Origin: Acidobacteriota bacterium | GTDB taxonomy: Bacteria > Acidobacteriota > Terriglobia > Acidiferrales > UBA7541 | Assembly: GCA_003224055.1 (NCBI GenBank) | Contig: QHYE01000097.1 | Span: forward strand, 1 to 43,827 | DNA: 43,827 bases | Direction of reading: 5' to 3' | Shown here: positions 8,006-42,243 of the stretch, piece after piece | Position numbering within the stretch: position 1 is the first letter of the stretch | How the letters are laid out: the number at the start of each line of letters is the position of its first letter | The notes under the pieces: generated by a model | What the model was told of the DNA's origin: nothing | Databases searched by the model: none | Seen by the model: only the letters and a program-made list of their open reading frames with translations | Position numbers and translations under genes: made by a program

Positions 8006-8011
8006 GCCTAT

Positions 8012-14027: not shown

Positions 14028-14110
14028 GTGCCCTTCATGGGAATAGAACGGACGTATTCTATTGAGCTAAAAGGATATTAATACTGCATTCAGGTATTTG
14101 AATCCCTGAA

Positions 14111-14123
14111 TGACATAACTTCA
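14111..14123 (+). repeat. Leader repeat, copy 2
   Basis: TGACATAACTTCA before the second MmgE/PrpD gene, matching 11218-11230 in 12 of 13 bases. AAGTGCCC at 14156-14163 and the following GGAGG also match the leader of the first paralogue. Confidence 0.5.
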
Positions 14124-14181
14124 GTTGTGGAGTTGAGTCCATTCCGTCCAGCGCGAAGTGCCCGGAGGATCAAGAACGCAC

Positions 14182-15723: not shown

Positions 15724-15809
15724 CGGGGTGCAGAGCTTAGCCTGAAACCACCTGAAGCCGCTTAGGAAGTGGACGTGAAGATCGAGAAAGCCAACTGAGG
15801 AGCGAAAGA

Positions 15810-22189: not shown

Positions 22190-22224
22190 ATTCTTGATCC
22201 AGAAAAACGAAAGTGGCTGCCAGC

Positions 22225-23274: not shown

Positions 23275-23408
23275 CGGAAACCTCCGCAGAAATCCTTGCT
23301 CGAACCAAGAACCTAATCGTGTGCGGACGGCAGCATTGTGCGAATTTCATCTGGCATTGCACTTGCAGGCCGCTCCCAAGGATATTCCAAACTAAGCGCC
23401 GGTTCGGT

Positions 23409-24431: not shown

Positions 24432-24537
24432 TATCCATCTCCTTGCGAACTTGATCGCGAATTAGGCTCCGCGCCTGTGTTGTCGATGTCTTGACAACAT
24501 GTGATGTAGAGAATAATTGAACGGCTCAGGAGTCACC

Positions 24538-24564
24538 TTAACTCAAAATTAATTTCCATTTACC
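24538..24564 (-). promoter_or_regulatory. TTA direct-repeat element, copy 1 (propeller operon / MFS divergent region)
   Basis: Three units begin with TTA at 24538, 24549 and 24560, exactly 11 bases apart: TTAACTCAAAA, TTAATTTCCAT, TTACC. This is the arrangement bound by OmpR/PhoB-type dimers. It lies about 105 bases before the GTG of the reverse propeller operon and about 100 bases before the TTG of the forward MFS gene, so it could act on either. Confidence 0.6.
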
Positions 24565-24662
24565 TGGAGTTTTGTCCGGGCCAGTCTCTATCAAAAGTGT
24601 CATTATTCGCATGCTTTAGGCGGCGACCATTTCTCGATTCGTCTAACGAGGAGGTCCGTCGG

Positions 24663-26000
24663 TTGGGTTTAGCTTCTTCACAGCTCGAAGCGGGACGAAT
24701 CCGGGAACCTGCCACGGCTCCGACTCGCATGCGGTGGCGTATCGTTACTCTGCTGGCTTTTGTCGCGGGTCTCACATATATCGACCGCTTGAACCTGGGT
24801 ATTCTCGCGAAGTATATCCAAGAGGAATTCCAGTTGCCGACGCAGACAATGGGCTGGATATTGGGCGCCTTCAGCCTGGGTTACGCGTGGTTCCACCTTC
24901 CCGGCGGATGGTTGGCTGACCGTTTCGGGCCACGTAGAATTCTGGCGGCGGCAATTCTCTGGTTTTCAGCGTTTACCGCAGCGACGGCGATGGCCCCGAC
25001 TTTCTTGCTCGTAAAATGGCTTGGCGTGGCTTGGGGACTTGCGATTGTTAGATTTCTGATGGGCATCGGAGAGTCCGCAGCGATACCAGTCGGGAACAAA
25101 ATGATGGGTTATTGGCTCGGCTCCAAGGAGCGCGCCTTCGGAACCAGCATCTTTTTGGCTGGGGTTGGAGGCGGCGGAGTCATTGCTCCACTCTTAATAA
25201 CGTGGATGGGCAAAGAATGGGGTTGGAGAACTCCCTTTCTTGCCTTAGGGTTCATTGGCGTGTTTGCGGCGTTGGCCTGCTACCACTACGTTACCGACCA
25301 GCCGCAAGGGAACCCTCGGGTCAACGCTGCTGAACTCGCTATTATATCCGGTGACCGCAAACCGGAATCGAGTTCCTTATCAGGTCCGCTACGAACGAGA
25401 GTGCCGTGGCTCAGGGTTCTCTCTGCCCCATCCATTTGGGGGCTGATGATCAGCCATTTCTGCCTGGTATACCCGGCCTACATTTTCTTTACATGGTTTT
25501 TCATCTACCTGGTGAAGGTCCGTGGCGTCACAGTGTCAAAAGCAGGCTTTTGGGGTTCTGCTCCGTTCGTCGCAAATGTCTGTTTGGTACCCCTCTGGGG
25601 CTGGCTTTCTGATCGCGCAGCAGAAAAACTCGGCAAGCGCCGCGGGCGCAGGGCGACAGCGTGGACAGGCATAGCGTGCTCCGCGTTATTGCTGTGGTCC
25701 GGTAGCCATACTGTAAGTAATCCTTTGGCTCTCTTACAGCTGACGCTTGCCGCCGGATTCAATTTTGCTGCATCAGCCGTTTTGTGGACTACGTGCAACG
25801 ACATCTCGACCAAATCGTCAGGATCGATCTCCGGCATCATGACCACGTTTGGCAGTCTTGGAGGGTTGGCGTCGCCGGTGGTGACAGCCGCGGTCGCGAC
25901 AAGAATGGGTTGGACGCGCGCGTTGGATTTCGCAGTTTTGGTCACTGCGATTAGTGGTTTGGCTTGGTTTTTTATAGACGCCGATCGAACAATTGAATAG
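24663..26000 (+). CDS. MFS anion:cation symporter family transporter (tartrate/sugar-acid type)
   Basis: 445 residues, twelve predicted membrane helices. The first helix reads LLAFVAGLTYIDRLNLGIL and the loop 2-3 region HLPGGWLADRFGPRRIL, both typical of the ACS branch (GudP, ExuT, TtuB) that moves glucarate, hexuronates and tartrate with protons. TTG 24663 is chosen because a full AGGAGG at 24649-24654 stands eight bases upstream; an upstream GTG at 24597 and a later ATG at 24729 have no ribosome site. The next gene begins at or just after its stop, so transporter and the AtuA-like/DUF4387 pair form one operon, probably importing their substrate or precursor. Confidence 0.85.
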   Translation: MGLASSQLEAGRIREPATAPTRMRWRIVTLLAFVAGLTYIDRLNLGILAKYIQEEFQLPTQTMGWILGAFSLGYAWFHLPGGWLADRFGPRRILAAAILWFSAFTAATAMAPTFLLVKWLGVAWGLAIVRFLMGIGESAAIPVGNKMMGYWLGSKERAFGTSIFLAGVGGGGVIAPLLITWMGKEWGWRTPFLALGFIGVFAALACYHYVTDQPQGNPRVNAAELAIISGDRKPESSSLSGPLRTRVPWLRVLSAPSIWGLMISHFCLVYPAYIFFTWFFIYLVKVRGVTVSKAGFWGSAPFVANVCLVPLWGWLSDRAAEKLGKRRGRRATAWTGIACSALLLWSGSHTVSNPLALLQLTLAAGFNFAASAVLWTTCNDISTKSSGSISGIMTTFGSLGGLASPVVTAAVATRMGWTRALDFAVLVTAISGLAWFFIDADRTIE

Positions 26001-26034
26001 GAGCGGGTTGATTCCTTCCGCTCGCACGCGGCAA

Positions 26035-27423
26035 ATGGAATCGGGTGCGATCTTGAAACAAAAGCTAAAGGCCCTTGCCGCCACGGGCAACTTAAGCACA
26101 GGATTTCAAGAGGAGAGCCTTGTTCGCGCGGTGCAGGAGGGTGCCAATTTCGTGGGCTGTGACGCTGGTACCACGGACTCGGGCCCGTATTACCTCGGCT
26201 CGGGAAATCCGCGAGGACCTCGTGAAGGCACGAAGCGAAACCTTCGCATCATGCTTCGTGAAGCCCTGCGAGCCGGCATCCCCGTCATCGTTGGCTCAGC
26301 CGGACACGCCGGCGGCAGGCCGCATCTCGAATGGACTGTCGAGATTGTCAAGGAACTGGCGCGGGAGAACCAGTGGCGCTTCAAGCTTGCCGCCATCGAC
26401 AGCGAGATAAACAAAGAGGACTTGCTTCATGCATTTCGTAGAGGTGAACTCACCCCCCTGCGTCCGGCTCCTGATCTAAATGAGGGCACTCTTCAGCGGG
26501 CTGAGCGATTCGTAGCGATGATGGGAATCGAGCCGATCCAGGCCGCGCTAAAGGCAGGCGCCCAGGTCGTCATTGCGGGCCGTTGCAGCGACGTCGCAAT
26601 TTATGCAGCGTTGCCAGTTCTCAAAGGAATTCCAAGGCATGTGGCGTTTCATGCCGGGAAAATCCTGGAATGCGGGGCGGCGACCGTTGCACAGCGTCTG
26701 TACGCGGACTGTATGGCAGCGGAGTTGGACCAAGAGGGGTTCACTGTGGAGCCCCCTAATCCGGCCCTGCGCTGCACCCCGCAAAGTGTTGCTGCTCACA
26801 CTTTGTATGAAAATGCGGACCCGTACTACCTCGTAGAGTCAGGGGGCGCGCTTGATACGACCGCTGCGCAATATGAGGCAATAAGCGACCGCGCCGTGCG
26901 CGTGAGCGGGAGCCGGTTTGTGGCGTCCGAAAAATACACCGTTCGCATCGAAGGAGCGGCTTTGGCAGGGTATCGTTCGATTGTGGTGGCGGGGATACGA
27001 GATCCCTTGATCTTGCGCCAACTTGACGAATTCTTGAGGAGTCTGCGGACTGTCGTTGAGCGAAAAATAGAGGACAGCTTGAAGTTACCTGGCGATGCCT
27101 ATACGCTCAGTTTTCGAGTGTACGGGCGCAATGGCTCGCTGGGTCACCTTGAACCTGTTTCGGGATTCGAGGGTCATGAGGTTGGATTGATCATTGATGT
27201 GGTCGCATCCTCACAATCGATGGCCGCGGATATCTTGCCGCTTGTGTGGCACACCGGACTTCATCACCCGATTCCGGAACAAGAAGGATTGATCAGCAAT
27301 TTTGCATTTCCATTTTCGCCGCCCGGGATTGATGTCGGTCCCGTTTATCAGTTCTGCGTCAACCACGTGTGGCAGCTGAATAATCCTTGCGAGCCATTTC
27401 GGACAACGATTGAAGATCTGTGA
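26035..27423 (+). CDS. AtuA/DUF1446-like protein (acyclic terpene utilization AtuA family)
   Basis: About 462 residues. Recognised by recall of the family sequence: GANFVGCDAGTTDSGPYYLGSG, GIPVIVGSAGHAGGRPHLEWT, VIAGRCSDVAIYAALP, ILECGAATVAQR, VEPPNPALRCTPQSVAAHTLYENADPY, VRVSGSRFV and VVAGIRDPLILRQLD. The start is unsettled: ATG 26035 has no ribosome site, TTG 26008 follows GGAG at short spacing, and TTG 25993 overlaps the transporter stop. The family is named from citronellol/geraniol degradation in Pseudomonas, but this branch with a separate DUF4387 partner is usually beside organic-acid genes; its reaction is not established. Translationally coupled to the next gene. Confidence 0.8.
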   Translation: MESGAILKQKLKALAATGNLSTGFQEESLVRAVQEGANFVGCDAGTTDSGPYYLGSGNPRGPREGTKRNLRIMLREALRAGIPVIVGSAGHAGGRPHLEWTVEIVKELARENQWRFKLAAIDSEINKEDLLHAFRRGELTPLRPAPDLNEGTLQRAERFVAMMGIEPIQAALKAGAQVVIAGRCSDVAIYAALPVLKGIPRHVAFHAGKILECGAATVAQRLYADCMAAELDQEGFTVEPPNPALRCTPQSVAAHTLYENADPYYLVESGGALDTTAAQYEAISDRAVRVSGSRFVASEKYTVRIEGAALAGYRSIVVAGIRDPLILRQLDEFLRSLRTVVERKIEDSLKLPGDAYTLSFRVYGRNGSLGHLEPVSGFEGHEVGLIIDVVASSQSMAADILPLVWHTGLHHPIPEQEGLISNFAFPFSPPGIDVGPVYQFCVNHVWQLNNPCEPFRTTIEDL

Positions 27424-27752
27424 ATTTGGACGGCAAAATGAAGGAACTCTGGGAATTTACGAAGCTCATTCGAAGCAAGAATGCAGGGCCATTCGAGCTT
27501 ACCTTCGACATCATGTTCAAGGACGCCGATTGCTTCGATCAGGTCATGAAGAGCGGCAAGCTCTCCGCAGAGGCAATCGCGGAACTTTATAAAATAGAGC
27601 TGGGTCAAGTGCAGTTCTTTGCGATTAAGCAGCTGCTGACAGTCAAAATTTCAATACCCAGGCGAGTTTTCTCTGGGGATGTGCAGGATACAGATGTTTA
27701 CGGCGGGCAGTTTCACGGCCCACTTGTTCGGATGGCGGTAGAATCGAGCTAG
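27420..27752 (+). CDS. DUF4387-family protein, partner of the AtuA-like protein
   Basis: 110 residues, GTG start overlapping the previous stop (GTGA) with GAAGAT upstream. It contains LIRSKNAGPFELTFDIMF near the start and the closing DTDVYGGQFHGPLV, both hallmarks of DUF4387. In many genomes this domain follows the AtuA-like protein or is fused to it, so the two are probably subunits of one enzyme. No catalytic residues can be named with confidence. The gene is the last of the forward group that begins with the MFS transporter and is convergent with the TonB-type gene at 31292. Confidence 0.85.
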   Translation: MNLDGKMKELWEFTKLIRSKNAGPFELTFDIMFKDADCFDQVMKSGKLSAEAIAELYKIELGQVQFFAIKQLLTVKISIPRRVFSGDVQDTDVYGGQFHGPLVRMAVESS

Positions 27753-27776
27753 AGAGTTTGGGTTTGCACTGCCACT

Positions 27777-27810
27777 TCGCATTCCCGTCCGGTGAAGGCC
27801 GGGAATGCGA
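27777..27810. terminator. Inverted repeat between convergent genes, possible two-way terminator
   Basis: TCGCATTCCCG at 27777-27787 pairs with CGGGAATGCGA at 27800-27810, an 11-base perfect stem that can extend by CC/GG past one mismatch, leaving a short loop. It lies 25 bases after one stop codon and 24 bases before the other of two convergent genes. No T-tract follows on either strand, so it is either a weak terminator or a transcript-end stabiliser. Confidence 0.5.
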
Positions 27811-27833
27811 TAGCAGCTAGTGCGTAACGAAAG

Positions 27834-30800
27834 CTAAAAGATAATCTTGATGGCAAATTGAATCTCTCGCGCCGTCGTGGTCGTTCTCGACAGCAAACCC
27901 GCCACTCCAGTATCTGCTCCCGACGAATCGAAGATGTCGGAGTTGTCGGGCGTGGTGGGCGGAGCAAAGTTGGCGTGGTTGAGAATGTTGAAAATCTCAA
28001 CCCGGAACTGTACGTTGAAATTTTCCGAGATTCTCCTAATGTGGTTGTTTTTGAACACCGAGAAATCCAGGGATGTTATGCCTGGGCCGATCATGATGTT
28101 GCGACCTGCGTTGCCGCGGAGGTTGAAGCATCTTAGATCTCCTGCAGGTAGTGGCCCCCCGAAAGTGGGAGGTGCAGGGTCGCAATTCGCCGTCCAGAAA
28201 GCCATATCGGGTGCGGTGGGAACTGCGAAGCACTCCGTCTTGACGTAATTGTTGGCGTTACCGGGATTCGTGAGGCTCTTGCAACCAGCACCGCCGAGCC
28301 GGTTCGGGAAAGCCCAGTCGTCCGAGCTGAGCGTTCCGGTCGGATCATCACCCGTGCCCCACGTGGGCGTGAACGGCACTCCATCGCTGGCTGTAAAGAT
28401 CACCCCGAGTTGCCAGCCATCGCTCAGCCAATGCGCAGGGCCGCTGAAAGATTTGGGCGACGGAACCTCCCAGGTGCCATTTAGGACCAGTGTGCGCCCG
28501 ATGCTGAAATCGGAGAGAGCGCGGCTCAACTTCGGGTCAAACGCAAACTGCAGGCTCGAAATTGAATTTCCAAACGCATCGCCTGCCACTGTCGCCGAAC
28601 TAGTATCAATACTCTTGCCCCACGTAAAAGTGCCTTGCATTTGAAAACCGTGGCTCATGCGCTTGGCCAACTGTGTTTCGAGCGCATTATAGTAGGAGCG
28701 CCCTTGATAAAACATTCCGCGCACCGAGCCAAAACCCTCATTGTTGCGTGAGGGTGGGGCGCAAAGGTTGGGGTCGTCCGGAGGCGCATTGGGATCAGTC
28801 GCATTGCATGGTGGCGTGGACGTGAAGACGTTGCCCTGGATATCCACTTTCGGCCAGAGATACCCAGCCGGCTTGAGCGTCGGGATGACCAGGCTAGCAT
28901 CATCCAAGCGGTAGGGCTGATGTACCCCGCGCGAGCCCACGTAGGCAACCATGGCCGTCAGATTCGGCATTAGCTGGTACTGGACGTTGAGGTTCCATTG
29001 CGTCACGTAGTTGCGTTTGGGGCTGGGATCGATATATGTGGCACGCAATTTGTTCGACGGAAGGGGTGGAAGGGTGTTGAAAAACGTTCCCGAACCCGGA
29101 TTGTTTATAGATGTGTACTGAAAGAAGGGTGCTGCCAATGTCGTCAGAAGTGTGAACTGATAAGGCAGGGGGAGCACATCAAACAGCCCGGCTCCGCCAC
29201 GGATCGCCATCTTCCCATTGCGCAAGGGGTCCCATGCAAAACCCAAGCGTGGCTCGAAATTCTTCGTCGTGGGATTGTTGAAGAAGGAGCCGGTCCCGGC
29301 ACAGCCCGCGACAGCCACTCCACATACGGGTTGTTCGTCCCTGAGGTTTCTCAGGACCGCGATTTTTCCGTTGGTCTCGGTGGGCACACTGGTCATCTCG
29401 TAACGCAGCCCCAGATTCAGTGTGAGGTTGGACTTCCAGCGCCAGTCATCCTGCAGATACAGACCGAAGAGGGTTTGGCGAAGGTTTCGCGGTGAGAGCG
29501 TGCTAGCGATTCCGCCTTGGAACTTGCTCGGATTGTTCGCGTAGAAATTCTGCAAGCTGCCAAACTTGAAGATTCCATTGGGATCGGAAAGAGCCCTTAT
29601 ATTTAGCAACATACGCTCGACGGTGCCGCCAAACTTGATTGTGTGTTTACCTTTGTTGATGAACGCGTCGTCATACGCTTGGAAGGAATTCCAATGGTAG
29701 AAGTACGCGGACTCTCCGGCCACGCCACCCAAGAAGGGGGTGATTCCAGAAATAAATACTTGCGGTGCTGTTCGGCCGGAAAATGTGCCCAGGGATGTGT
29801 CGGCCGCCTCCGGGATCAGGGCCTTCAGGCCCTGGTTGTTGTCCACCACCTCGTAGTTGTAGCCAAAACGCACCGTATTGGCGAAGCTGGGCTTAAAGAG
29901 ATGGGTCTCCTCCAGGACAGCGATCTGCCTCGAGCTCTTGCTACCGAGTAAAACGTTATTGACGCCGTCCGGGGATGTGAAAGCCGTCTTGTCGTATAGG
30001 TAGGTGCCGGACGCATTGTCCTTCTCGGAAAACTTGTGATCCAGCCTCGTGGTGAAGAAGTTTTCATTGACGACCTGCTGACCGGCGAATCTGTATTTTG
30101 ATATGTCTGCGCTGTCCGTAGGGCTTTCGTTGGGGGAGGGCAGGTGGTAAAACGGGAGGTAAAGTAAGGCCTGATTATCTACACAGACGTTCGACTGCCC
30201 AGGCACAATTAGTGTTGTTCCGGGGGGGCACGAAGCCACCGGAGGATCTCCGTTGTCGAGGATTCCGTTGCGGGCATTGAGGGACGGAACTGTAGTCAGA
30301 GCGGTTATGCCCTTCGACTGTCGGATGCCTTCATAGTCCGCGAAGAAGAAAGTGCGGTTCTTTATGATGGGGCCGCCGATCGCGCCGCCAAATTGGTTTC
30401 GCTTAAAAGAAGGGATTTTGGCGCCATCGAAAAAATTCCTGGCGTCGAGTGCGCTGTTTCGGAGAAATTCGTAGACACTCCCATGCAGTCCATTGGTTCC
30501 AGAGCGCGTAATGGCATTGACGACGCCTCCGGAAGTCTTGCCGTACTCTGCGGAATAATTGCTCGTGAGGACTGAAAATTCCTGGATGGCATCTACGCCT
30601 AAGTTTCCGCCCAGCACGCTGCCCGGTGCTCCATTCGCGTAGTCGTTGATACTGGCGCCATCGAGACGATAATTGTTCTGCTGCGGCCGGGCGCCGGAGA
30701 TGGTTAACTGCTGCCCGAAACCGCGATTGCCGCGGTCCGCACCGACGGCGAAAGTCGGTTGAGTCTGAATCGTATCCACACCGGGCTGGAGGGCTGCCAA

Positions 30801-31292
30801 GTCCGTCCAACTGCGGCCATTGAGAGGCAGCTCGCGGACGGTAGTGGCGTTGACCGTGGCACTAATTTCTGAACTGGTAGTTTGTATGGCCGGTGCATCG
30901 GTGGTGACTTCTACCTTATGAGAGATTGTCCCGATGCGCAGGACGAGGTCAAAGACTTGCTGCGACCCCACACTGATCCTGATTCCCGACTTAGTCTCGG
31001 TGTCAAATCCCTTTGTGGAGATTGTGACCTGGTAGTCTCCGGGCAGCAAGTTCGCTGCTATGTAAAAGCCATCCGAGTTCGTCGTAACCGTCGTAGTAAT
31101 TCCGGTCGCCACATTCCGGATCGAAACCTGTGCTTGAGGCACATATTTGTCCGAAGGGTCAGTGATCGTGCCGGAGAGCGTTCCCCCTGCAACCTGGCCG
31201 CGGGCCGGTACTGAAAAACAAATACTTATTGTGAAAAGGACAGTCATCGTGCAGCAAAACAAATATCCCACAGAAATTTTTCGAGAGGACAC
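27834..31292 (-). CDS. Oar-like TonB-dependent outer-membrane protein 2
   Basis: 1152 residues from a GTG start with a near-perfect ribosome site GGAGGTGAT. Signal peptide (about 1-32, ending ARGQ), then the regulatory Ig-like domain (about 36-120, GGTLSGTITDPSDKYVPQAQVSIRN), the plug with VRELPLNGRSWTDLAALQPGVD and TSGGVVNAITRSGTNGLHGSVYEFLRN, and a beta-barrel ending in terminal phenylalanine (KIIF). It is paralogous to the product at 16920-20243. It is encoded 53 bases after a sensor kinase gene in the same direction, so it may be both target and part of the operon of that two-component system. A TTA-repeat element overlaps the kinase stop just upstream. Confidence 0.93.
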   Translation of the reverse strand: MSSRKISVGYLFCCTMTVLFTISICFSVPARGQVAGGTLSGTITDPSDKYVPQAQVSIRNVATGITTTVTTNSDGFYIAANLLPGDYQVTISTKGFDTETKSGIRISVGSQQVFDLVLRIGTISHKVEVTTDAPAIQTTSSEISATVNATTVRELPLNGRSWTDLAALQPGVDTIQTQPTFAVGADRGNRGFGQQLTISGARPQQNNYRLDGASINDYANGAPGSVLGGNLGVDAIQEFSVLTSNYSAEYGKTSGGVVNAITRSGTNGLHGSVYEFLRNSALDARNFFDGAKIPSFKRNQFGGAIGGPIIKNRTFFFADYEGIRQSKGITALTTVPSLNARNGILDNGDPPVASCPPGTTLIVPGQSNVCVDNQALLYLPFYHLPSPNESPTDSADISKYRFAGQQVVNENFFTTRLDHKFSEKDNASGTYLYDKTAFTSPDGVNNVLLGSKSSRQIAVLEETHLFKPSFANTVRFGYNYEVVDNNQGLKALIPEAADTSLGTFSGRTAPQVFISGITPFLGGVAGESAYFYHWNSFQAYDDAFINKGKHTIKFGGTVERMLLNIRALSDPNGIFKFGSLQNFYANNPSKFQGGIASTLSPRNLRQTLFGLYLQDDWRWKSNLTLNLGLRYEMTSVPTETNGKIAVLRNLRDEQPVCGVAVAGCAGTGSFFNNPTTKNFEPRLGFAWDPLRNGKMAIRGGAGLFDVLPLPYQFTLLTTLAAPFFQYTSINNPGSGTFFNTLPPLPSNKLRATYIDPSPKRNYVTQWNLNVQYQLMPNLTAMVAYVGSRGVHQPYRLDDASLVIPTLKPAGYLWPKVDIQGNVFTSTPPCNATDPNAPPDDPNLCAPPSRNNEGFGSVRGMFYQGRSYYNALETQLAKRMSHGFQMQGTFTWGKSIDTSSATVAGDAFGNSISSLQFAFDPKLSRALSDFSIGRTLVLNGTWEVPSPKSFSGPAHWLSDGWQLGVIFTASDGVPFTPTWGTGDDPTGTLSSDDWAFPNRLGGAGCKSLTNPGNANNYVKTECFAVPTAPDMAFWTANCDPAPPTFGGPLPAGDLRCFNLRGNAGRNIMIGPGITSLDFSVFKNNHIRRISENFNVQFRVEIFNILNHANFAPPTTPDNSDIFDSSGADTGVAGLLSRTTTTAREIQFAIKIIF

Positions 31293-31345
31293 TAGATCAC
31301 CTCCATCATTGGGGTTGAGCCTAGTGCAGAGCCCAGGATGATGCC

Positions 31346-31372
31346 TTAACGCAAAATTAATTTCTGTTTAGG
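31346..31372 (-). promoter_or_regulatory. TTA direct-repeat element, copy 2 (upstream of TonB-type gene 2)
   Basis: TTA-led units at 31346, 31357 and 31368: TTAACGCAAAA, TTAATTTCTGT, TTAGG. The first unit is also the stop codon of the kinase gene, so the element lies within its last codons. It ends about 54 bases before the GTG of the TonB-type gene. Of 27 bases only four differ from copy 3 at 34833-34859. Confidence 0.65.
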
Positions 31373-32773
31373 TGTGATTTCGAGAACGGCTTCCTGTGGA
31401 TGAGTAATGGGCAGTATCACGGTAAAGGTTGAACCGACTCCCACTGTGCTCTCGCACTCAATGGCGCCACCCTGGGCGATGGCGATGGCCTGCGCAATGG
31501 CCAGACCGAGCCCTCCGCTCTGGGCGTCACCGCTATTCAAAGGTGCGGCCCGGTAGAACCGATCAAAGATAAACGGTAAGTGCTCCGGTGAGATCCCGAC
31601 TCCTTGATCTTGAAAACGTGCTTGAATCGCCCCGTCTCGAACCCCCAACGTCACGCGGATGCGCGTACCATCGGGGGAATACTTGATCGCATTGTCGAGA
31701 AAAATCAAAAACAGTTGGTGCAGGAAGGCCTCATCTCCAGTCCAGGCCACTTCCTCGTTCAAATTCCGTACGATGGACATATTCTTCGTGCGCGCGCGCG
31801 AGGCGGCTAGCGAGCAAGCTTCTTCGAGAACCTCGTTGATGTAAAGCGGTTCCCGGACCAAATGTAATTGCCCGGCGTCGGCCATCGAGAGAGTGAACAG
31901 ACCTTCCACGATCCGCGTCAGTTTCTTGAACTCATCGTCGAATACGCAAAGAGTCTGGCGATATTCTTCCGCGCTTCGTGGTTTAGAGAGCAGCAGCTCT
32001 GTCTCGCCGTGAAGTACTGCGAGTGGAGTGCGCAACTCGTGCGAAGCGTCTGTCACAAATTGGCGTAACTGGAGAACGGCCGAATCAACGCCCTTCAATA
32101 GATGATTAAACGTTACCGCCAATCGCCCAAGCTCATCATGAGGGGAACACACCGGCAGCGGTGTCCAAAACCCTTGTCGGTTTGTCACACGTTTAGCCAT
32201 CAGAGCAGCATGTCTGGTCAGCTCCTTGATTGGCGCAAGGCTTCTCCCGACGTAAAGTGCTGATATTGCGGCGGTCAGCAGGAGGCTTAAAGGAAAAAGC
32301 AGCAAGGCCACTCTTCCAAAGCTGTCGAGCACTCGGTTAGTCCCAAAGGTAGGGATGGCCACGGCAAAAATAAGCGCCTGATTTCCTTGCTGAAAAGGAA
32401 TGAGCGCCACGCGCACCGTTTCTCCGTTCTCGAGGGAAGCTATCCCGAAAGTCGGCTGCGAATCGGCCAGGTTCAGCCCAGTTAGCTTCATCCGTGCATC
32501 GAGATTCTTGGACTGCTGGAGGACGTGGCCATTTTGGTCCAGGAGCTCAAAGAACTCGCCCGGAAGGTCTAGCCGGTTTACGTCCTTCGCGTCGGGTTCG
32601 GTGACCATGTCAGAAATGATGGGCCGTGCGGTCTCAAGCAACTGACGATTGAGCTGGGTATGGACCGTATGGGCCAGCAGGCCCCAAAACGCCAGGTAGG
32701 ACCCAGCTAGAAGTACTCCGACAACGGTGCAGAAAAGCAGCATCATCCGGAGACGGAGTGTTCCGACTTTCAT
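31346..32773 (-). CDS. Membrane sensor histidine kinase (receptor-linked)
   Basis: 475 residues: transmembrane helix at about 10-32, periplasmic sensor about 33-150, second helix about 153-178, HAMP, H-box FVTDASHELRTP with His245, N-box FLDNAIKYSPDG, G1 DQGVGISPE, F-box IFDRFYRAAP, G2 GGLGLAIAQ. All motifs are intact. The start overlaps the regulator's stop by four bases. This kinase sits between a propeller/regulator pair and a TonB-type receptor, so it may sense the availability of the ligand handled by those envelope proteins. The sensor domain itself is not recognisable. Confidence 0.93.
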   Translation of the reverse strand: MKVGTLRLRMMLLFCTVVGVLLAGSYLAFWGLLAHTVHTQLNRQLLETARPIISDMVTEPDAKDVNRLDLPGEFFELLDQNGHVLQQSKNLDARMKLTGLNLADSQPTFGIASLENGETVRVALIPFQQGNQALIFAVAIPTFGTNRVLDSFGRVALLLFPLSLLLTAAISALYVGRSLAPIKELTRHAALMAKRVTNRQGFWTPLPVCSPHDELGRLAVTFNHLLKGVDSAVLQLRQFVTDASHELRTPLAVLHGETELLLSKPRSAEEYRQTLCVFDDEFKKLTRIVEGLFTLSMADAGQLHLVREPLYINEVLEEACSLAASRARTKNMSIVRNLNEEVAWTGDEAFLHQLFLIFLDNAIKYSPDGTRIRVTLGVRDGAIQARFQDQGVGISPEHLPFIFDRFYRAAPLNSGDAQSGGLGLAIAQAIAIAQGGAIECESTVGVGSTFTVILPITHPQEAVLEITPKQKLILR

Positions 32774-33447
32774 GACCCTGGTGTCCCCAAGCGGTACCCT
32801 ACGCCGCGGATGGTATGGATCAGCTTTACGGAGCGGTCTTGATCAATCTTCTGGCGAAGGCGATTGATGTACACCTCAACGAGATTAGTTTCGCTGTCAA
32901 AATGGCAATCCCAAACATGTTCTACGATCTCACTGCGGGTAATGAGCTCAGGTGCCCGAAGCAATAGCAGCTCAAGGAGGGCGAATTCTCTGGACGTGAG
33001 GGGGATCGTCTCTTTGTCCCGTGTAGCGCGGCGGCGATGACGGTCGAGTATTAAGTCTGCGTAACTGAGTCTGGCGTTGCCGCTGTGGAAGCCCCGCCGA
33101 ACGAGTGCCCGCACACGTGCAAGGAGTTCGGCCAAGACGAACGGTTTCGTCAAGTAGTCGTCGGCGCCTGCATCCAATCCTTCGACACGCTGCTCGACCA
33201 ATCCTCGCGCCGTGAGCATCAGGACAGGCACTTCTATTCCTTGCTGGCGCAACTCGCGGCAGACTTCGATTCCACTAAGGTCGGGCAAACGCACATCCAG
33301 AAGAATGGCGTCGTAAGGGACGTCAGCACCTAGTTCAAGTGCTTTCCGGCCCGTTTCCGCCACATCCACCGCGTACGTGTTTTCCCTCAAGGCGCGTGCG
33401 ATAAAGCTGGCGACCTTCCGTTCGTCTTCGACTAAGAGAATCCGCAT
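32770..33447 (-). CDS. OmpR/PhoB-family response regulator (receptor-linked)
   Basis: 225 residues from ATG 33447, where the canonical MRILLVEDE start lies; the open frame extends 20 codons further to 33507 without receiver homology. Phospho-acceptor Asp51 in ILLDVRLP, Lys101 in LTKPFVL, and a C-terminal winged helix with LTSREFALLELLLLRAPELI and NLVEVYINRLRQKID. It is the best candidate to bind the four TTA direct-repeat elements, because two of these lie in its own gene group (upstream of the propeller gene at 34555 and upstream of the TonB-type gene). The regulator at 3040 is the alternative. Confidence 0.93.
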   Translation of the reverse strand: MRILLVEDERKVASFIARALRENTYAVDVAETGRKALELGADVPYDAILLDVRLPDLSGIEVCRELRQQGIEVPVLMLTARGLVEQRVEGLDAGADDYLTKPFVLAELLARVRALVRRGFHSGNARLSYADLILDRHRRRATRDKETIPLTSREFALLELLLLRAPELITRSEIVEHVWDCHFDSETNLVEVYINRLRQKIDQDRSVKLIHTIRGVGYRLGTPGS

Positions 33448-33544
33448 AGCCCCGCTCAATTCTCTCATAACGAGGCGCGTCGTAGCCTGCGTTGGTTCAA
33501 TACTCACCGCAGAATCCGGGTTCGATTACGAAGCACGCGCACTA

Positions 33545-34555
33545 TTACAGAACATCAAATACGAGCACCCTAGCGCTTGTGGTGCCGTGCTGCGGCACAG
33601 CGACAAAATAACGCTTCAATTCCGGCACTAGGCGCGCTGTCCTCCCCATGGGGCCTGTAGAGACGTTCGCTAGCAACTTGTAACTATCAGGGCTGGATTG
33701 CTCATAGATATCAACCGCACCATCACAGGCGGCATAGACACGCTTGCTCGCCGGATCGTAAGTAATATCGTCAACTCCCTTGGTGATAGGAAAAGACGTA
33801 ACTTCCTTGCCCGTTTGGGTATCCAGCACTGAAATCACTCCGCTGCGACAAGCGACAAACAAGCGATGGTTCGCTTCGTCAAGGGCCATCGCCACGTTGG
33901 GCTTGCATTGCGTTACGGGCCAGCTCGCTACGAGTTCGCGCTTCTCCCGATCCACAACAGAAATCTGGTTCCTAGCTCTGTTATTTAGATACATTTTCGA
34001 TGTGGACTTCTCCAACGCCATGGCCTCGAGAGTTTCTCCGTCAATCTTGAGGTCGGCCAATTTCTTTCCTGCGGTCGTATCAATGACGCTTAGCATCGAG
34101 TACGTTTGATGAACGTCCCCGCCACCGTTGTCGATATAGAGGTACTTGGTGACCGGATCGTATCCAATGGAATCCGCGTCCTCTAAGAGCTTCACGCTGG
34201 ACACGAGACCGTACGTTTTGCCATCGAAGATCTTCAAATCTCCCGCATCGCCGTCGGTAACGTAAATGCGGTTCAGATCCTCCCGATAGAGCACGGCGTG
34301 CGGCTTGCCAATGCCATCTATCTTGTGAACCAGTTTGCCTGTCTTCAAATCAAACACAACGACAGCATGGTAGCCTTCCGGAGTCGCAAACAGCCGCCCG
34401 CCTTTCAGGTCAATTCCGAAATGGTCGAAGTTCCCTTTAACCTCCGCAGGCAGCTCAAAAGTTTGGATCAGCTTGATTGGTGCAGCCATTTGACACCGGG
34501 CTTGGATTCCGAAGACCATGAGGGTCGCGACAAGGACTAAGGACCGTTTCTCCAT
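33545..34555 (-). CDS. Secreted YVTN-type beta-propeller protein (subfamily 2)
   Basis: 336 residues, signal peptide MEKRSLVLVATLMVFGIQARCQ, then IKLIQTFELPAEVKGNFDHFGIDLKGGRLF, the subfamily-2 opening. The repeats, KPHAVLYREDLNRIYVTDGDAGDLKIFDG and the closing TARLVPELKRYFVAVP are shared with the products at 15810 and 23409. It is followed at 97 bases by the response regulator, kinase and TonB-type receptor in the same direction. This repeats the propeller-plus-receptor pairing seen at 15810-20243. Confidence 0.88.
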   Translation of the reverse strand: MEKRSLVLVATLMVFGIQARCQMAAPIKLIQTFELPAEVKGNFDHFGIDLKGGRLFATPEGYHAVVVFDLKTGKLVHKIDGIGKPHAVLYREDLNRIYVTDGDAGDLKIFDGKTYGLVSSVKLLEDADSIGYDPVTKYLYIDNGGGDVHQTYSMLSVIDTTAGKKLADLKIDGETLEAMALEKSTSKMYLNNRARNQISVVDREKRELVASWPVTQCKPNVAMALDEANHRLFVACRSGVISVLDTQTGKEVTSFPITKGVDDITYDPASKRVYAACDGAVDIYEQSSPDSYKLLANVSTGPMGRTARLVPELKRYFVAVPQHGTTSARVLVFDVL

Positions 34556-35187
34556 TTTCTCTCCCTAAGATGAAATGCTTCTTACGTGAAACTAAGTTGC
34601 TAGCCGCAGCTCCATTCCGCTACGGCCTGTCCATGCGGTGGACTATCTTGCCCCTGCAGTGGCAGACACCAATGATTTTGCGCCAGGCTTGACCGGCTTC
34701 TTCGAAGACTCAGGTGTGTATCCAGATTTCCCTCTCCGAATCAGTCGGGCAAATGAGAGCCCGCTACAGGGGGGCTCAAGCTCCGCCAGAGCACACCACC
34801 ATAGAGCATAATTCATTCATTTCAGTTGAGACTTAAAACAAGATTAATTTCTGTTTAGCTGAAAGGCGATTGGTGTCGAGATCCTATCTGAAAACAGGCG
34901 CTTTAGAATGATTGTATGCTCTACATATTCGTTCACCCACTGGGACAGCCGTTGACTCACTTTGAACAGTGACGTAGCATCCGCCGAGTCGCGTGTCGAT
35001 TTTTCATTTTCGTCAGCGGTTTCATCGCCTCGATTCTCCAGTCGGCAAATGCGATCGTGTTATGAAAGCGGTATAAATTGTCAGGTCAGGAACCAACCTG
35101 ATGCGCCGCGTTGCCATAGTTACTTCCTCCAGACTGAGAAGGGGTTCCGGAACGCAGGAACTGGCACCCAGTGCATAACTGGAAGCT
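34556..35187. other. Long intergenic region between divergent gene groups
   Basis: About 630 bases without a convincing gene. It holds the TTA direct-repeat element at 34833-34859 and presumably the promoters of the reverse propeller-regulator-receptor group and of the forward phosphatase group. Reading frames here lack codon bias or recognisable products. No other repeat or RNA structure was noticed. Confidence 0.5.
34833..34859 (-). promoter_or_regulatory. TTA direct-repeat element, copy 3 (upstream of propeller-regulator-receptor group)
   Basis: TTA-led units at 34833, 34844 and 34855: TTAAAACAAGA, TTAATTTCTGT, TTAGC. It lies about 280 bases before the propeller gene at 34555. Reading on the reverse strand, AT-rich TGAATTATGCT follows within about 40 bases and could hold the -10 region. 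Confidence 0.6.
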
Positions 35188-35394
35188 ATGGACTACAAGA
35201 TGGTGAACGACGCCATCAGTGCGATCACCACAATGTTCAAAAGCGTGAAAGACCTCTTTGTACGACTCAAAGAAACAAGCAGCACGGGAATGGACCAAGC
35301 CGTTTTCGCGAAAGTTCGCAAGGAATTGGAAGACGTGATTGGACTGGAAGAATACTACCGGATTGAGGAGCAAACAGTTGAGAACAGAGAGTAG
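35188..35394 (+). CDS. Possible small helical protein (hypothetical)
   Basis: 68 residues (MDYKMVNDAISAITTMFKSV at the start), predicted almost wholly alpha-helical with regular hydrophobic spacing and an acidic tail. Only a weak GGAAG precedes the ATG. Its end overlaps the proposed TTG start of the next gene by 17 bases, which would allow translational coupling. No family is recognised, and it could be a chance frame; the composition is the only support. Confidence 0.35.
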   Translation: MDYKMVNDAISAITTMFKSVKDLFVRLKETSSTGMDQAVFAKVRKELEDVIGLEEYYRIEEQTVENRE

Positions 35395-36937: not shown

Positions 36938-37187
36938 AACATTCTCGATTGGCTGAGAAGCGAGCTTAGGCTCAACCAGCTCGGGCCAGGTTGGAAGCTG
37001 GAACTTGACGGAAGAAATCAACGGTAGTGCAATATCGCCTCGATTCCCCCTATTCGGCGGGCATCGTGCTAGTCCAAATGATGCGTTGGGACACTAGAAG
37101 GGCGGACAGATCGTACGCATGAATTGAACTCTTCGAGTGGAAATGCATGCAGCCAAAAGCAGATCTGCAAATTATCAGGGGTGAAAA

Positions 37188-38693
37188 ATGCGCAGGCGTG
37201 ACTTTGGGATAGCTTCTCTAGGCGTGATTGCTTCAACCATGCTGACAGATTCCATAGAAGGTGCGAAACTCATGTCCAGGAGTGACTTTCCCCGGGCGCC
37301 CGGCCTCACGGATTACGTCGGCAAATTTGTCTCGCAGGCAAAGTACGAAGATATTCCGGGAGAAGTAGTTGAATTGGGGAAAAAGTCGATCCTCGATGGT
37401 TTGGGATTGGCATTAGCAGGTTCCAAGGCGCAGACAGGGAGTCTATGCCGTCGGTATCTGGAGAGAATCGGTGTCTGCGATGGACAATCCACCATCATTG
37501 GATCAGCCCGGAAAACTTCACCACGCTTCGCTGCCTTTGTGAACGGCGTTTCGATCCACGCGGATGATTTCGACGACACGCAGCTCGCCGTCGCCAAGGA
37601 CCGTGTTTATGGCCTGCTCGTGCACCCAACTGTGCCTGTTCTTCCCGCTCTCCTCGCGCTCGCGGAACGCGGTGGCGTTTCGGGCAAGCAATTGACACTG
37701 GCCTATCATTTGGGCGTTGAAGTGGAGTGCAAGATCGCGGAGGCAATCTCGCCCCGCCACTATCAAGATGGATTTCATTCCACGGGAACATGCGGGCCGT
37801 TTGGTTCCGCAGCAGCATGCGCAAAGCTGCTCCAGTTTGAGCATTCGCAAATACTGAATACGTTTGGACTGGTTGCTAGTCAGTCGGGGGGACTCAGAGA
37901 AAACTTTGGCACCATGACCAAACCGTATCAAGCCGGTCACGCTGCAGAAAGCGGGCTTGTGTCCGCGGAACTTGTTGCCTTGGGTTGGACCGCAGCCGGG
38001 CAAATTCTGGAAGCGGACCGCGGCTTTTTCCACGCCTTCGGAGGTTCCTACGATCCTGCGGCGATTATGGACCGTCTCGGGAGGCCTTGGACGTTCGTTT
38101 CCCCGGGAATCTCGCTGAAACCTTATCCATCAGGATCACTCACTCATCCCGCCATGACTGAACTAGCGCGGATGATCGAGGCCAACAATATTCAAGCCGC
38201 CCAAGTGGAAAAGATCGATGTCGGCGCCAATCACAATATGACGACAACTCTTCTCCATCATGAGCCGAAGACCGGACTGGAAGCAAAATTCAGCATGGAA
38301 TTCTGCATAGCGATCTTGCTCTTGGAACACGAAGCGGGGTTGAAAGAATTCTCAGACAAAGTGGTTCAGCGGGCCGACGTTCAGGAGATGATCCGCCGGG
38401 TAAACTTTTATGTAGATCCGGAGGCCGAGAGCGCCGGTTACGACAAAATGACCTCCCTACTGAAAATTCATTTGAAGAACGGAAGCTCCATCGCCGGCCG
38501 GGCTGATTTTGGCAAGGGCAGCCCGGCGAACCCCATGACTTTTGAAGAAGCAGCGGCAAAATTCAGAGGATGTGCCGGGTACGCGGACTGGCCGAAGGTC
38601 AAGACAGAGAGAATAATCGCTTTTGTAAGGGCCTTGGATTCGGCCCCGGATGTACGTGCGTTGTCACCGTTGTTGTCAGCGGAGAGGGAATAA
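37188..38693 (+). CDS. MmgE/PrpD-family protein with twin-arginine-like leader (paralogue 3)
   Basis: 501 residues; AGGGGTGA precedes the ATG. The N-terminus starts MRRRDFGIASLGVIASTM, a short Tat-like leader. The family domain keeps IHADDFDDT (active-site Asp), LVHPTVPVLPALLALAE (His-Pro) and the complete lysine-to-histidine motif LKPYPSGSLTHP. It is distant from the tandem pair at 11304 and 14182, which have lost that histidine. Length and motif set suit a functional dehydratase, decarboxylase or isomerase of a carboxylic acid. It ends 12 bases before the tartrate/D-malate dehydrogenase gene, so both probably act on linked substrates. Confidence 0.85.
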   Translation: MRRRDFGIASLGVIASTMLTDSIEGAKLMSRSDFPRAPGLTDYVGKFVSQAKYEDIPGEVVELGKKSILDGLGLALAGSKAQTGSLCRRYLERIGVCDGQSTIIGSARKTSPRFAAFVNGVSIHADDFDDTQLAVAKDRVYGLLVHPTVPVLPALLALAERGGVSGKQLTLAYHLGVEVECKIAEAISPRHYQDGFHSTGTCGPFGSAAACAKLLQFEHSQILNTFGLVASQSGGLRENFGTMTKPYQAGHAAESGLVSAELVALGWTAAGQILEADRGFFHAFGGSYDPAAIMDRLGRPWTFVSPGISLKPYPSGSLTHPAMTELARMIEANNIQAAQVEKIDVGANHNMTTTLLHHEPKTGLEAKFSMEFCIAILLLEHEAGLKEFSDKVVQRADVQEMIRRVNFYVDPEAESAGYDKMTSLLKIHLKNGSSIAGRADFGKGSPANPMTFEEAAAKFRGCAGYADWPKVKTERIIAFVRALDSAPDVRALSPLLSAERE

Positions 38694-38705
38694 AGAGCTC
38701 CGTAC

Positions 38706-39767
38706 ATGAAAACTTTCAATATTGCAGTCATTGCAGGAGACGGCATCGGGAAAGAGGTGGTGCCCGAAGGCATCCGCGTGCTGGAAGCTGCGGGACAGCG
38801 CTTTGGTTTTCGATGGAACTGGCACGCATTCGACTGGAGTTGTGAAACCTACATGGAGACCGGAAAGATGATGCCGGCAAATGGCCTGCAGCAACTCCGG
38901 CCTTTTGACGCGGTCTTCCTTGGCGCAGTTGGACATCCCAGTGTCCCGGATCACGTTTCGCTCTGGGGCCTGTTGATTCCTATCCGCCGCGGATTCCGTC
39001 AATACGTAAATTTGCGCCCCGTCCGGCTTTTTGAAGGGATTGAGACTCCGCTGAAGAACTGGAAACCCGGCCAAATTGATTTCTGCATCGTCCGTGAGAA
39101 CAACGAGGGGGAATATTCAAACATTGGCGGTCGCCTCTATGAAGGAACTGAGGAGGAGATGGCTGTTCAGCAAACGGTTTTCACACGACGGGGAGTGAAC
39201 CGCGTGCTGCAATTCGCGTTCGAATTGGCTAGCAAGAGAAACAAGCATCTCACCTCCGCCACAAAATCAAACGGCATCATTCACACCATGCCCTTCTGGG
39301 ACGAGTGCTTTCATGCGATGGCGGCCAAATTCCCGGAAATCCGCGTGGACCAGTTTCACATCGATATCCTGACCGCACATTTTGTGCGGCACCCGGATTG
39401 GTTTGATGTTGTCGTGGGCTCCAATCTTTTTGGCGACATTCTTTCCGATCTAGGCCCCGCTGTCGTGGGGTCCATCGGCATCGCGCCTTCCGCGAATCTC
39501 AACCCCGAAAAACAATTTCCGTCCATGTTTGAGCCTGTTCATGGCTCGGCACCTGATATTGCCGGAAAGGGAATCGCGAATCCAATCGGGCAGATTTGGT
39601 CTGGCGCGATGATGGTAAGACATCTGGGTGTTCCAGACGCTGCGAATGCCGTGGAAGACGCGATCGCGCAGATTCTAGCGCAATCTAAAGTGCGTACTCC
39701 GGATATAGGCGGTACCTCGACGACCAAGGATCTCGGGGCGGCTATCGCGCTGCAAGTGAGCAATTAG
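38706..39767 (+). CDS. ttuC: Tartrate dehydrogenase/decarboxylase or D-malate dehydrogenase
   Basis: 353 residues of the isocitrate/isopropylmalate dehydrogenase family, at the usual length for the tartrate/D-malate branch. Visible: IAVIAGDGIGKEVVPEG at the start, RRGFRQYVNLRPVRL (substrate arginines), VRENNEGEYSNIGGR (branch signature), the metal-binding Asp region SNLFGDILSDLGPA and the NAD-site segment EPVHGSAPDIAGKGIANP. Reaction in the family: NAD- and Mn/Mg-dependent oxidation of tartrate isomers (with decarboxylation of meso-tartrate to D-glycerate) and of D-malate to pyruvate. Which of these is physiological cannot be told from sequence; a D-tartrate dehydratase in the same region favours tartrate. 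Cytosolic, convergent with the cupin gene only six bases away. Confidence 0.9.
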   Translation: MKTFNIAVIAGDGIGKEVVPEGIRVLEAAGQRFGFRWNWHAFDWSCETYMETGKMMPANGLQQLRPFDAVFLGAVGHPSVPDHVSLWGLLIPIRRGFRQYVNLRPVRLFEGIETPLKNWKPGQIDFCIVRENNEGEYSNIGGRLYEGTEEEMAVQQTVFTRRGVNRVLQFAFELASKRNKHLTSATKSNGIIHTMPFWDECFHAMAAKFPEIRVDQFHIDILTAHFVRHPDWFDVVVGSNLFGDILSDLGPAVVGSIGIAPSANLNPEKQFPSMFEPVHGSAPDIAGKGIANPIGQIWSGAMMVRHLGVPDAANAVEDAIAQILAQSKVRTPDIGGTSTTKDLGAAIALQVSN

Positions 39768-39773
39768 GAGCAG

Positions 39774-40541
39774 TCACTTTGTCGGTGCTGGCGTTATTTC
39801 CGCAGGCCCTTGAGGTTTCAATCGAAACGAAATCAACCGTGCTTCCTTGTCGCTGATGTTCTTGAATACGGATGCCGCCTGGCCAATCGCAATCCACTCG
39901 AAATCGCCGCGCCGCAGTGGTTTGCCCGGGCCTGTTTCGCCTACAGTCTCAACTAATGCATCGTCGAGCGACACGATCAATTCCGAACGGCCAGTGTTGC
40001 CTAAACTGACGTTTTGATGAGGCAGCACCCGAACAAGAGCCACAAAAGTCTGGTCGGTTTCATATTGGGGTTCTTCCACGTGCGTCGAGTTCGACGGTAA
40101 TGCCTGTTCACGGGCACAGTTCAGCCCCTCGGTGGCGTTCACCTTAGCGCAGAGATTGTGTCCTCCCTTCTGAGGGAAAAGAAGCTCTACGGTGACGTTC
40201 CGGTAGATCGCTTCGCCCTCGACCGATGTGGAATGCACATAGCCGCTGGACTGAAGCCGCACTTGACCCTCGGCGAGTTTCTGTCGTGCGTCCGGTTTTC
40301 CGGGAGCGCGGACAACGACTTCCGAATTGCCCATCATGATGCTAATGGAGTCAAATTCATGCCGGTGCAACTGTACGGAATCGTGCGGTGCGACTTCGAC
40401 TTCGTACACGTTTACGTAATCGTTATGCAATGCAAGATGATGATGAGGCTCGGAAGCCAGCGGAATAACGGTGGCCATCTGCGCGAAGATCACCAGGGGA
40501 AAACAACACATTGCGAGTAATAACTCCGTTTTCGCTTTCAC
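39774..40541 (-). CDS. Secreted cupin-fold protein
   Basis: 255 residues with signal peptide MKAKTELLLAMCCFPLVIFAQ. The first cupin barrel has VAPHDSVQLHRHEFDSISIMM (metal-type His-x-His) and a second motif GQVRLQSSGYVHSTSVEG with His. A second, degenerate barrel spans about 160-250 (VSLGNTGRSELIVSLDD, RGDFEWIA) without metal ligands. Cupins of this type bind or modify small organic acids or sugars; no catalytic assignment is possible. It lies 51 bases after dctA in the same direction, suggesting a common transcript and a periplasmic role linked to dicarboxylate uptake. Confidence 0.75.
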   Translation of the reverse strand: MKAKTELLLAMCCFPLVIFAQMATVIPLASEPHHHLALHNDYVNVYEVEVAPHDSVQLHRHEFDSISIMMGNSEVVVRAPGKPDARQKLAEGQVRLQSSGYVHSTSVEGEAIYRNVTVELLFPQKGGHNLCAKVNATEGLNCAREQALPSNSTHVEEPQYETDQTFVALVRVLPHQNVSLGNTGRSELIVSLDDALVETVGETGPGKPLRRGDFEWIAIGQAASVFKNISDKEARLISFRLKPQGPAEITPAPTK

Positions 40542-40592
40542 GAAGATTTTCCATGGAAGGGGTAAGTCTCCATTTTTTTCACCGCCTAGTGT

Positions 40593-41906
40593 TTAGCGCC
40601 CTCCACTTTCTGCCCCTGCCAGTCTCTTTAGCATAGTGTCTCTGTCTAGCTCGTTTTCCCACCGGGCCACGACGAGAGTGGCAACTGCGTTGCCGGTCAT
40701 GTTGACCGCAGCACGGCACATGCTGAGAAAACGATCGATGCCGAGAATCAACGCCATTCCGGCAACGGGAATCGTTGGGATCACCATCATGGTGGCGACG
40801 AGCGCGATAAAGGCAGCTCCTTGCACGCCGCTTGCGCCTTTGGACGTGAGTAGCGCGACGCCTAGGATCGTGAACTGCTGGGTCAGCGTTAGATGCGTGT
40901 GGGTTGCCTGAGCCACGAATAAGGCGGCAAGCGTCATGTAGAGACTTGTGCCGTCGGCATTGAAGGTGTAACCCGTGGGTACAACCAGGCCAACGAGAGC
41001 TTTGGAGCAGCCGAGCTTTTCGAGTTTGGCCATGAGTGATGGCAACGCGGGTTCCGAGGAACTCGTGGCCAGCACCAGGAGAATCTCTTCGCGAAGAAAC
41101 CAGAGGAAACGCAGGATTCCGAAGCCTGCTAGGCGAGCGATGAGCCCCAGCACCAGGATGACGAAGAGTATCGATGTAATGTAGAGCGTGGCCATCAATT
41201 TGACGAGAGGGCCCAAGGAAGCCAGACCGTATTTGCCAATGGTGAAGGCCATGGCGCCAAACGCTCCGATGGGGGCAAAGCGCATCAAGATGGCGACCAC
41301 GCCGAAAACGACGCGGCTCAGAGCCTCCAAGACCTCGAGGAGCGGTTTGCCGCGCGGGCCGGCGAGCGACAAAGCGAAGCCGAACAGAAGACTGACAAAC
41401 AACACTTGCAAGATGTCTCCCCGCGTGAACGCATCCACGATCGTATTCGGAATGATGTGGACAAGAAACTCCGTAACGCTTTGGGCTTTACCCTGGCCGG
41501 CATATTCGGCGACGGCTTTGGGATCCAGCGTGGCGGGATCGACATTCAGACCGCTGCCGGGATGCACCACGTTACCCACGACGAGTCCGATAAGCAGCGC
41601 GAGTGTAGATACGACTTCAAAATACAGCAGGGCCTTGCCGCCGACACGGCCTACTTTCTGCATGTCCTCCATGCCGGCGATTCCGGTGACCAAGGTACAG
41701 AAGATGACCAACGTGATGATCATGGTGATCAGACGGATAAATACGTCACCAAGCGGCTTCATGGCGACCGCTCGAGTGGGGCTCACGTAGCCGAGGATTA
41801 TGGCAATGGCGACGCCGACCAGCACTTGGAACGAGAGGCCCATGTAAAAAGGCCTTTCGCGCGGAGTTGGAGTTGTTTCAGGTGGGTTGGAGGCCGGGAC
41901 CAGCAT
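40593..41906 (-). CDS. dctA: C4-dicarboxylate:cation symporter DctA
   Basis: 437 residues from ATG 41906, chosen because AAGGAG stands 12 bases upstream and the length then fits the family; the frame stays open to 41957. Inner-membrane glutamate-transporter fold with all signatures: [19 protein letters not shown] (hairpin 1), [45 protein letters not shown] (hairpin 2) and [20 protein letters not shown] (substrate and cation site). It takes up succinate, fumarate, malate and similar dicarboxylates, and could import tartrate-pathway substrates or products for tarD and ttuC. A TTA-repeat element lies about 300 bases upstream. Confidence 0.95.
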
Positions 41907-42208
41907 CGCTTGGGCCAGCTCCTTTGAGGCACGGGCCGGAGCTCGCGGACATCGCAAGAGTCTCCAGAGCGAGCAATTTGCTGATGAGCGCCTTTGTGAA
42001 ACTGAGCGAAAGCGCCGCGAGGACAGTGGACATGCCGCGGAGCTTGATCAAGCAGCGCCGCATCACCATCTTGGAATCTCAAATTTCGTGGACATTTTCC
42101 TCCGACGCGCTCCTATTTTCTTGCGCAAGAGCTTGGCTGCATCCACGGCGATCGGCGCAACATCGAAAGTGTAAGAACTGAGGTTATGCTACGAGTAAGC
42201 TTGATACC

Positions 42209-42243
42209 TGAAATCAGCATTAATTTCTCTTAATACGTAATTA
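42209..42243 (-). promoter_or_regulatory. TTA direct-repeat element, copy 4 (upstream of dctA), imperfect
   Basis: TGA/TTA-led words at 42209, 42220, 42230 and 42241, spaced 11, 10 and 11 bases. The central TTAATTTCTCT matches TTAATTTCTGT of copies 2 and 3 in ten of eleven bases. On the reverse strand GTAGCATAA about 30 bases downstream could serve as a -10 region for dctA. Confidence 0.5.

Follow-up and report, generated by a model that had tools for sequence, protein, structure and literature searches.

A repeated DNA element of about 25 to 26 bases, made of TTA/TAA units at an 11-base period, was analysed in contig QHYE01000097.1 of an Acidobacteriota bacterium (assembly GCA_003224055.1). 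The whole stretch comprises 43,827 nucleotides and is referred to below as the window. The element is genuine and is not a product of chance. Together with RR2, an OmpR-type response regulator encoded in the same cluster, it probably constitutes a local regulon, likely to be autoregulated, with a precisely defined predicted operator. We assign a probability of about 0.83 to the reading that the element is the operator of the adjacent two-component system, formed by RR2 and the sensor kinase HK2, and that it activates five units. The sites, their exclusivity in this genome, their conservation at the same places in relatives, the spacing of a downstream hexamer and the co-occurrence with RR2 were established by computation.

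Sites of the element in the window and genome

The original prediction placed three perfect copies at 24538, 31346 and 34833, with units at 11-base spacing, and a weaker fourth copy at 42209. In a scan of the window the three copies each matched the consensus TTAANNNAANATTAATTTCNNTTTA with 0 mismatches, at the predicted spacing. The copy at 42209 (plus strand), in which the outer unit is degenerate, was recovered with 3 mismatches. A fifth copy, also with 3 mismatches, was found at 14068 (minus strand) in the gap between open reading frames ending at 14027 and starting at 14158, which raises the copy number from four to five. Shuffled sequences gave 0.00 expected matches at this level. The bare pattern TTA-N8-TTA-N8-TTA occurred 3 times in the window versus 0.01 expected in shuffles.

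The genome containing the window comprises 4,527,594 bases (4.53 Mb) in 136 contigs and is 95.6% complete. TTAA-N7-TTAATTTC occurred three times genome-wide, every time inside the window. A genome-wide scan with TTAANNNAANATTAATTTCNNTTTA at up to 3 mismatches returned not a scatter of random or mostly intragenic matches but five sites, all in this cluster, and the reversed-pattern control gave 0 matches at the same threshold. A sequence-only model was trained on 30 sites of relatives, with own-genome sites excluded. Applied to the whole genome at E<=10 (150 of 446 first-look candidates scored), it returned the same five sites only, with E-values of 4.7e-15, 2.3e-14, 4.2e-9, 0.0012 (42209) and 0.05 (14068). 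The probability that five independent sites all land in this 44 kb of 4.53 Mb is approximately 9e-9.

In the direction of the downstream gene, each copy reads TAAACAGAAATTAATCTTGTTTTAAG or a variant of it, with TAA units at 0, 11 and 22. Four of the five are oriented toward minus-strand genes, and every one points at a gene start. The placement of the predicted copies upstream of the named genes was borne out, with the amendment that the copy at 31346 also overlaps the HK2 stop codon. The five copies were named as follows.

34833-34857, minus strand: Box A, 5' of the propeller-RR2-HK2 group (putative autoregulation); -10-like TATGCT at 34805-34810; kept at the same place in relatives.
31346-31370, minus strand: Box B, 5' of TonB2, sharing bases with the final codons and the stop of HK2; -10-like TAGGCT at 31318-31323.
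24538-24562, minus strand: Box C, 5' of the three-propeller unit (24431-20282); -10-like TATTCT at 24510-24515; orthologous site L043:4996.
14068-14092, plus strand: Box D, 5' of MmgE2-propeller-TonB1; -10-like TAACTT at 14116-14121; sites at MmgE2 homologues, L037:5648 and L045:615.
42209-42233, minus strand: Box E, the imperfect copy, 5' of DctA and a cupin-like gene; -10-like TAACCT at 42181-42186; orthologous site L045:4029.

On the side of Box C that faces the divergent MFS gene (start 24597), no hexamer at equal spacing was seen by eye.

Co-occurrence with the regulator

The distribution of the element was compared with that of RR2 in 61 genomes (the genome of the window and 60 relatives) and in a class set of 399 genomes. 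Of the 61 genomes, 15 have RR2 orthologues of at least 70% identity; the matches that rank next reach at most 55%. Sites at up to 2 mismatches were found in 14 of the 61, with at least two sites in 12 of those, and the reversed-pattern control gave 0 matches in this set. A site was carried by 14 of the 15 genomes with RR2 (all but G053) versus 0 of the 46 without it (Fisher p 6.7e-13). HK2 at E<=1e-100 followed the same pattern as RR2, being present in 14 of the 61 genomes, including G053 and excluding G059.

For the class set RR2 was called at E<=1e-90, corresponding to 66% identity or more. RR2 was present in 47 of the 399 genomes, a site in 33 and both in 28. A site was therefore carried by 28 of 47 RR2 genomes versus 5 of 352 others (p 1.5e-25). 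Within the genus the figures were 12 of 12 versus 0 of 24; outside it they were 16 of 35 versus 5 of 328 (p 2.0e-14). With a matrix trained only on genus sites of other genomes, 23 of 36 outside-genus loci had a box scoring at least 15 no farther than 3 kb from RR2. The same matrix was applied to 59 loci of more distant response regulators, over their central 6.7 kb or in full where they were shorter, and none had such a box; with column-permuted matrices one was found in 0.14% of trials. RR2, which had been proposed as the candidate regulator, is almost certainly the cognate regulator of the boxes, as judged from this comparative evidence in both genome sets.

Placement of the sites in relatives

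As judged by similarity to window proteins, the site in relatives precedes the propeller-RR2-HK2 group and recurs between HK2 and TonB2. Window copies C, D and E have counterparts between MFSb and propeller 5 (L043), before MmgE2 (L037, L045) and before DctA (L045), respectively. In 7 of 36 loci outside the genus (L206, L217, L229, L231, L233, L241, L242), the box is directed at TolC/RND export genes beside RR2-HK2. In a further 4 of the 36 (L165, L212, L243, L244) it separates RR2 from a divergent propeller-TolC-RND set.

Two RR2 copies each were observed in G019 (L036, L037) and G002 (L048, L166), and both G019 clusters have their own sites. The window itself holds, at 1798-11188, a second propeller/response regulator/kinase set followed by TolC, an RND adaptor and an RND pump; its response regulator is referred to as RR1. 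Outside the genus, RR2 orthologues adjoin TolC/RND homologues, some with a propeller (e.g. L206, L212, L229, L231, L233, L241-L244). This gene order suggests a swap of regulator and target.

Promoter anatomy

The sequence past the box was analysed in 42 strong sites of the window and relatives (up to 2 mismatches to TAAANNGAAATTAATNTTNNNTTAA). TAnnCT started 22-24 bases past the box in 36 of the 42, in 32 of them at exactly 22. At all other positions up to 54 past the box it occurred three times in total. In the window, TAnnnT stands 22-23 bases past each of the five copies. For boxes outside the genus, a matrix trained on genus sites and ending just past the box was used, which gave 36 distinct boxes; TAnnnT lay 21-24 bases past the box in 28 of these, against a background of 0.9% per position. 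At TonB2 the hexamer (31318-31323) is followed by GGAGGTGAT, a ribosome-binding stretch identified by eye, before the GTG at 31292. Because a -10-like TAnnnT follows each window box at 22-23 bases, box and hexamer together look like activator-dependent promoters in which the activator would replace the -35 element.

Box B within the kinase gene

Fifteen loci that have a box between HK2 and TonB2 were subjected to a frame test. In 14 of them, including 31346-31370 of the window, the box coincides with the final seven HK2 codons and the stop; L239 failed the test. The C-terminal peptide encoded at the box varies (KQKLILR, ERKLILD, KQKLMLS, KQKLIMG) while the DNA units are constant. The core leucine codon is TTA in 14 of 14 kinase frames. 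TTA accounts for 49 of 905 leucine codons in those frames (the 14 included) and for 36 of 1042 in 20 other window genes. Because the peptide varies while the DNA units and a rare TTA leucine codon stay, the constraint at Box B is read as acting on the DNA. Box B is a clear case of a putative regulatory site constraining a protein C-terminus. In other genera the box lies more often directly past the kinase gene.

Genes of the predicted regulon

A single predicted operator sequence precedes the target units, the regulator's own operon included (Box A). The genes concerned are listed below.

32770-33507, minus strand: RR2, OmpR-type response regulator with receiver and winged helix (Pfam PF00072, PF00486); the proposed box-binding protein, on the basis of co-occurrence.
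31346-32773, minus strand: HK2, HAMP/HisKA/HATPase sensor kinase (domain scan); presumed partner of RR2 from its profile in relatives.
33545-34555, minus strand: YncE-like beta-propeller (YncE model, below cut-off), first gene of the RR2-HK2 group.
27834-31292, minus strand: TonB2, Oar-like TonB-dependent outer-membrane protein.
20282-24431, minus strand: three-propeller unit with genes at 23409-24431, 22225-23274 (named by similarity and by eye) and 20282-22189.
14158-20243, plus strand: MmgE/PrpD-like protein (14158-15723), propeller (15810-16919) and TonB1 (16920-20243).
39774-41957, minus strand: DctA C4-dicarboxylate transporter (model NF002461, above cut-off) and a cupin-like protein.

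RR2 and HK2 fit the OmpR/PhoB-family set of a receiver, a Trans_reg_C winged helix and an adjacent HisKA/HATPase kinase. The propeller at 33545-34555 is probably secreted, having a signal-peptide-like start by eye. The cupin-like protein beside DctA gave no Pfam hit and was named by eye. Oar-like TonB receptors and YncE-like propellers are abundant in these bacteria and poorly understood. For the genes in hand, "envelope/dicarboxylate regulon" is a fair label.

A tartrate dehydrogenase gene (38706-39767, above the curated cut-off) adjoins an MmgE/PrpD gene, and the window scan found no box upstream of it. The cluster may be devoted to tartrate or a similar hydroxy acid.

Geometry and nearest known systems

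The units had been read as the tandem half-sites of OmpR/PhoB regulators. As an 11-base direct repeat the element scores well, with a column similarity of 0.745 per pair at shift 11. Dyads with centres at 11.5 and 12.0 fit equally well, reaching 0.796 and 0.810, and the tandem arrangement is not distinguished from these. The best NCBIfam model for RR2 is that of the CzcR/SilR/CopR subfamily (TIGR01387), at 246.9 bits, below the cut-off of 279.2. By sequence, its DNA-binding domain is nearest to PcoR among solved chains, and full-length RR2 is nearest to 1kgs. According to PMC7380067, CopR, PcoR and AgrR bind inverted repeats. The same text describes a core box for AgrR, with an in-phase extra half-site at some operators, and classes AgrR as a Type II activator at the majority of the promoters investigated, with positive autoregulation.

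The AgrR box given there, ATKACANNNNTGTMAT, is unlike the TTAA units found here (PMC7380067). CopR, PcoR, AgrR and CzcR form a heavy-metal branch of the OmpR family, but in the five target units no copper or silver gene was recognised. Downstream of the box, TolC/RND genes are seen in loci outside the genus but at none of the five window sites.

Two other systems share features of the element. The PmrA (BasR) half-sites CTTAAT and CCTAAG stand head-to-tail five bp apart, an 11-base period (PMC3973317). This resembles ATTAAT-N5-NTTAAG, the arrangement most often taken by the two downstream units here; in copies D and E the last unit is TTCAG. In contrast to PmrA, RR2 scores 194.5 against a cut-off of 330 bits (NF007928), the element has three units, and the target genes are others. 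The CtrA box, TTAA-N7-TTAA, has the TTAA unit and spacing of the present element, and lies at -35 in most CtrA-activated promoters (PMC11264516). CtrA is described there as a global regulator of roughly 100 Caulobacter genes (PMC11264516), whereas five sites in one cluster were found here; RR2 also falls short of the CtrA model, with 176.3 against 350 bits (NF045991).

Proposed mechanism and alternatives

In the mechanism that we infer, HK2 would sense an envelope or nutrient signal and phosphorylate RR2. An RR2 dimer would then bind the TAA/TTA units and substitute for the -35 element, aiding RNA polymerase at the TATGCT-like -10 hexamer 22-23 bases downstream. The units switched on, within their predicted operon limits, would be the propeller-RR2-HK2 operon, TonB2, the three-propeller operon, MmgE2-propeller-TonB1 and DctA-cupin.

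Several observations weigh against this reading. The direct repeat being indistinguishable from a dyad, the known OmpR/PhoB tandem geometry is a possible one only. No site at up to 2 mismatches was found in 19 of the 47 class genomes with RR2; by matrix, a weaker box lies near RR2 in 8 of these and none in 11. G053, with an RR2 of 79% identity, has no site. Thirteen of the 36 outside-genus loci have no box scoring at least 15 within 3 kb of RR2. Among these 13, L210, L221 and L222 are interrupted by a contig end, either in the kinase gene or directly behind RR2; L223 stops 1.1 kb beyond RR2, and no kinase was recognised in it. When the 13 were searched with the model, a single match was obtained, in L224. 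Under a relaxed box-plus-hexamer rule, L208 and L224 yielded one match each; the other 11 yielded none, and neither did the 59 control loci over 1.04 Mb. In five class genomes a site occurs with no RR2 at E<=1e-90. The reversed control pattern matched in 4 of 399 genomes (G108, G281, G352, G361), and isolated two-mismatch matches in the class can therefore be chance. The genomes are related, so that the Fisher values overstate independence and the p values serve as a guide only.

RR2 orthologues 76-79% identical to RR2, with an adjacent kinase and no recognisable box nearby, were observed in L164 (G053), L216, L219 and L220. The operator may have changed in these four loci.

The alternative that fares best, though unlikely, is that RR2 binds the boxes as a repressor, its dimer blocking polymerase until a signal arrives. 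With about 22 bases between the end of the last unit and the -10-like hexamer, a protein on the box would sit over the -35 region, as repression would have it. However, no TTGACA-like -35 was apparent by eye in the spacer, and the activator role of AgrR, a regulator of the nearest branch (PMC7380067), points the other way.

It is very improbable that box and hexamer form the promoter of a special sigma factor. The fixed box-to-hexamer spacing would suit such a promoter, but the box is about 26 bases long, has an 11-base period and tracks the presence and absence of RR2. None of 20 window proteins scanned against Pfam matched a sigma-factor family.

Binding of the element by RR1 (3040-3762), the other OmpR-type regulator of the window, is given slightly less credence still. 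RR1 shares 50% identity with RR2 and belongs to the same cluster. Its relatives at E<=1e-80 are present in 28 of 61 genomes, however, 17 of them without a site, and at this threshold it is missing from G002, G045 and G059, all of which have sites. RR1 was rejected as the cognate regulator, as it does not co-occur with the element.

Chance AT-richness, which could be suspected of an AT-rich core in a GC-richer window, was rejected as practically nil, in agreement with the original prediction, by the shuffles, by the empty reversed controls in the window's own genome and the 61 genomes, and by the conserved placement.

Significance

Among the literature matches listed, there was no described response-regulator operator for Acidobacteriota, and no Acidobacteria match joined beta-propeller, histidine kinase and TonB. 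The one Acidobacteria match for YncE together with TonB-dependent proteins is a paper on lanthanide methylotrophy; a figure legend in it places YncE and TonB genes in one neighbourhood, and its text is without the term "two-component". Within these matches the regulon is new for this group, yet of a familiar kind.

It is conceivable, if on balance doubtful, that RR2-HK2 and its operator represent an undescribed envelope-control module across this Acidobacteriota class. The periplasmic YncE-like propeller would act as co-sensor, and the operator would have been re-aimed from propeller/TolC/RND export in other genera to TonB uptake and dicarboxylate use in this genus.

RR2-HK2 as activator of the five units provides a regulon prediction with sharp limits, comprising the regulator, the operator, the promoter spacing and five target units, for largely uncultured soil Acidobacteriota. 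Oar-like TonB receptors and YncE-like propellers would be linked by it to a sensor kinase.

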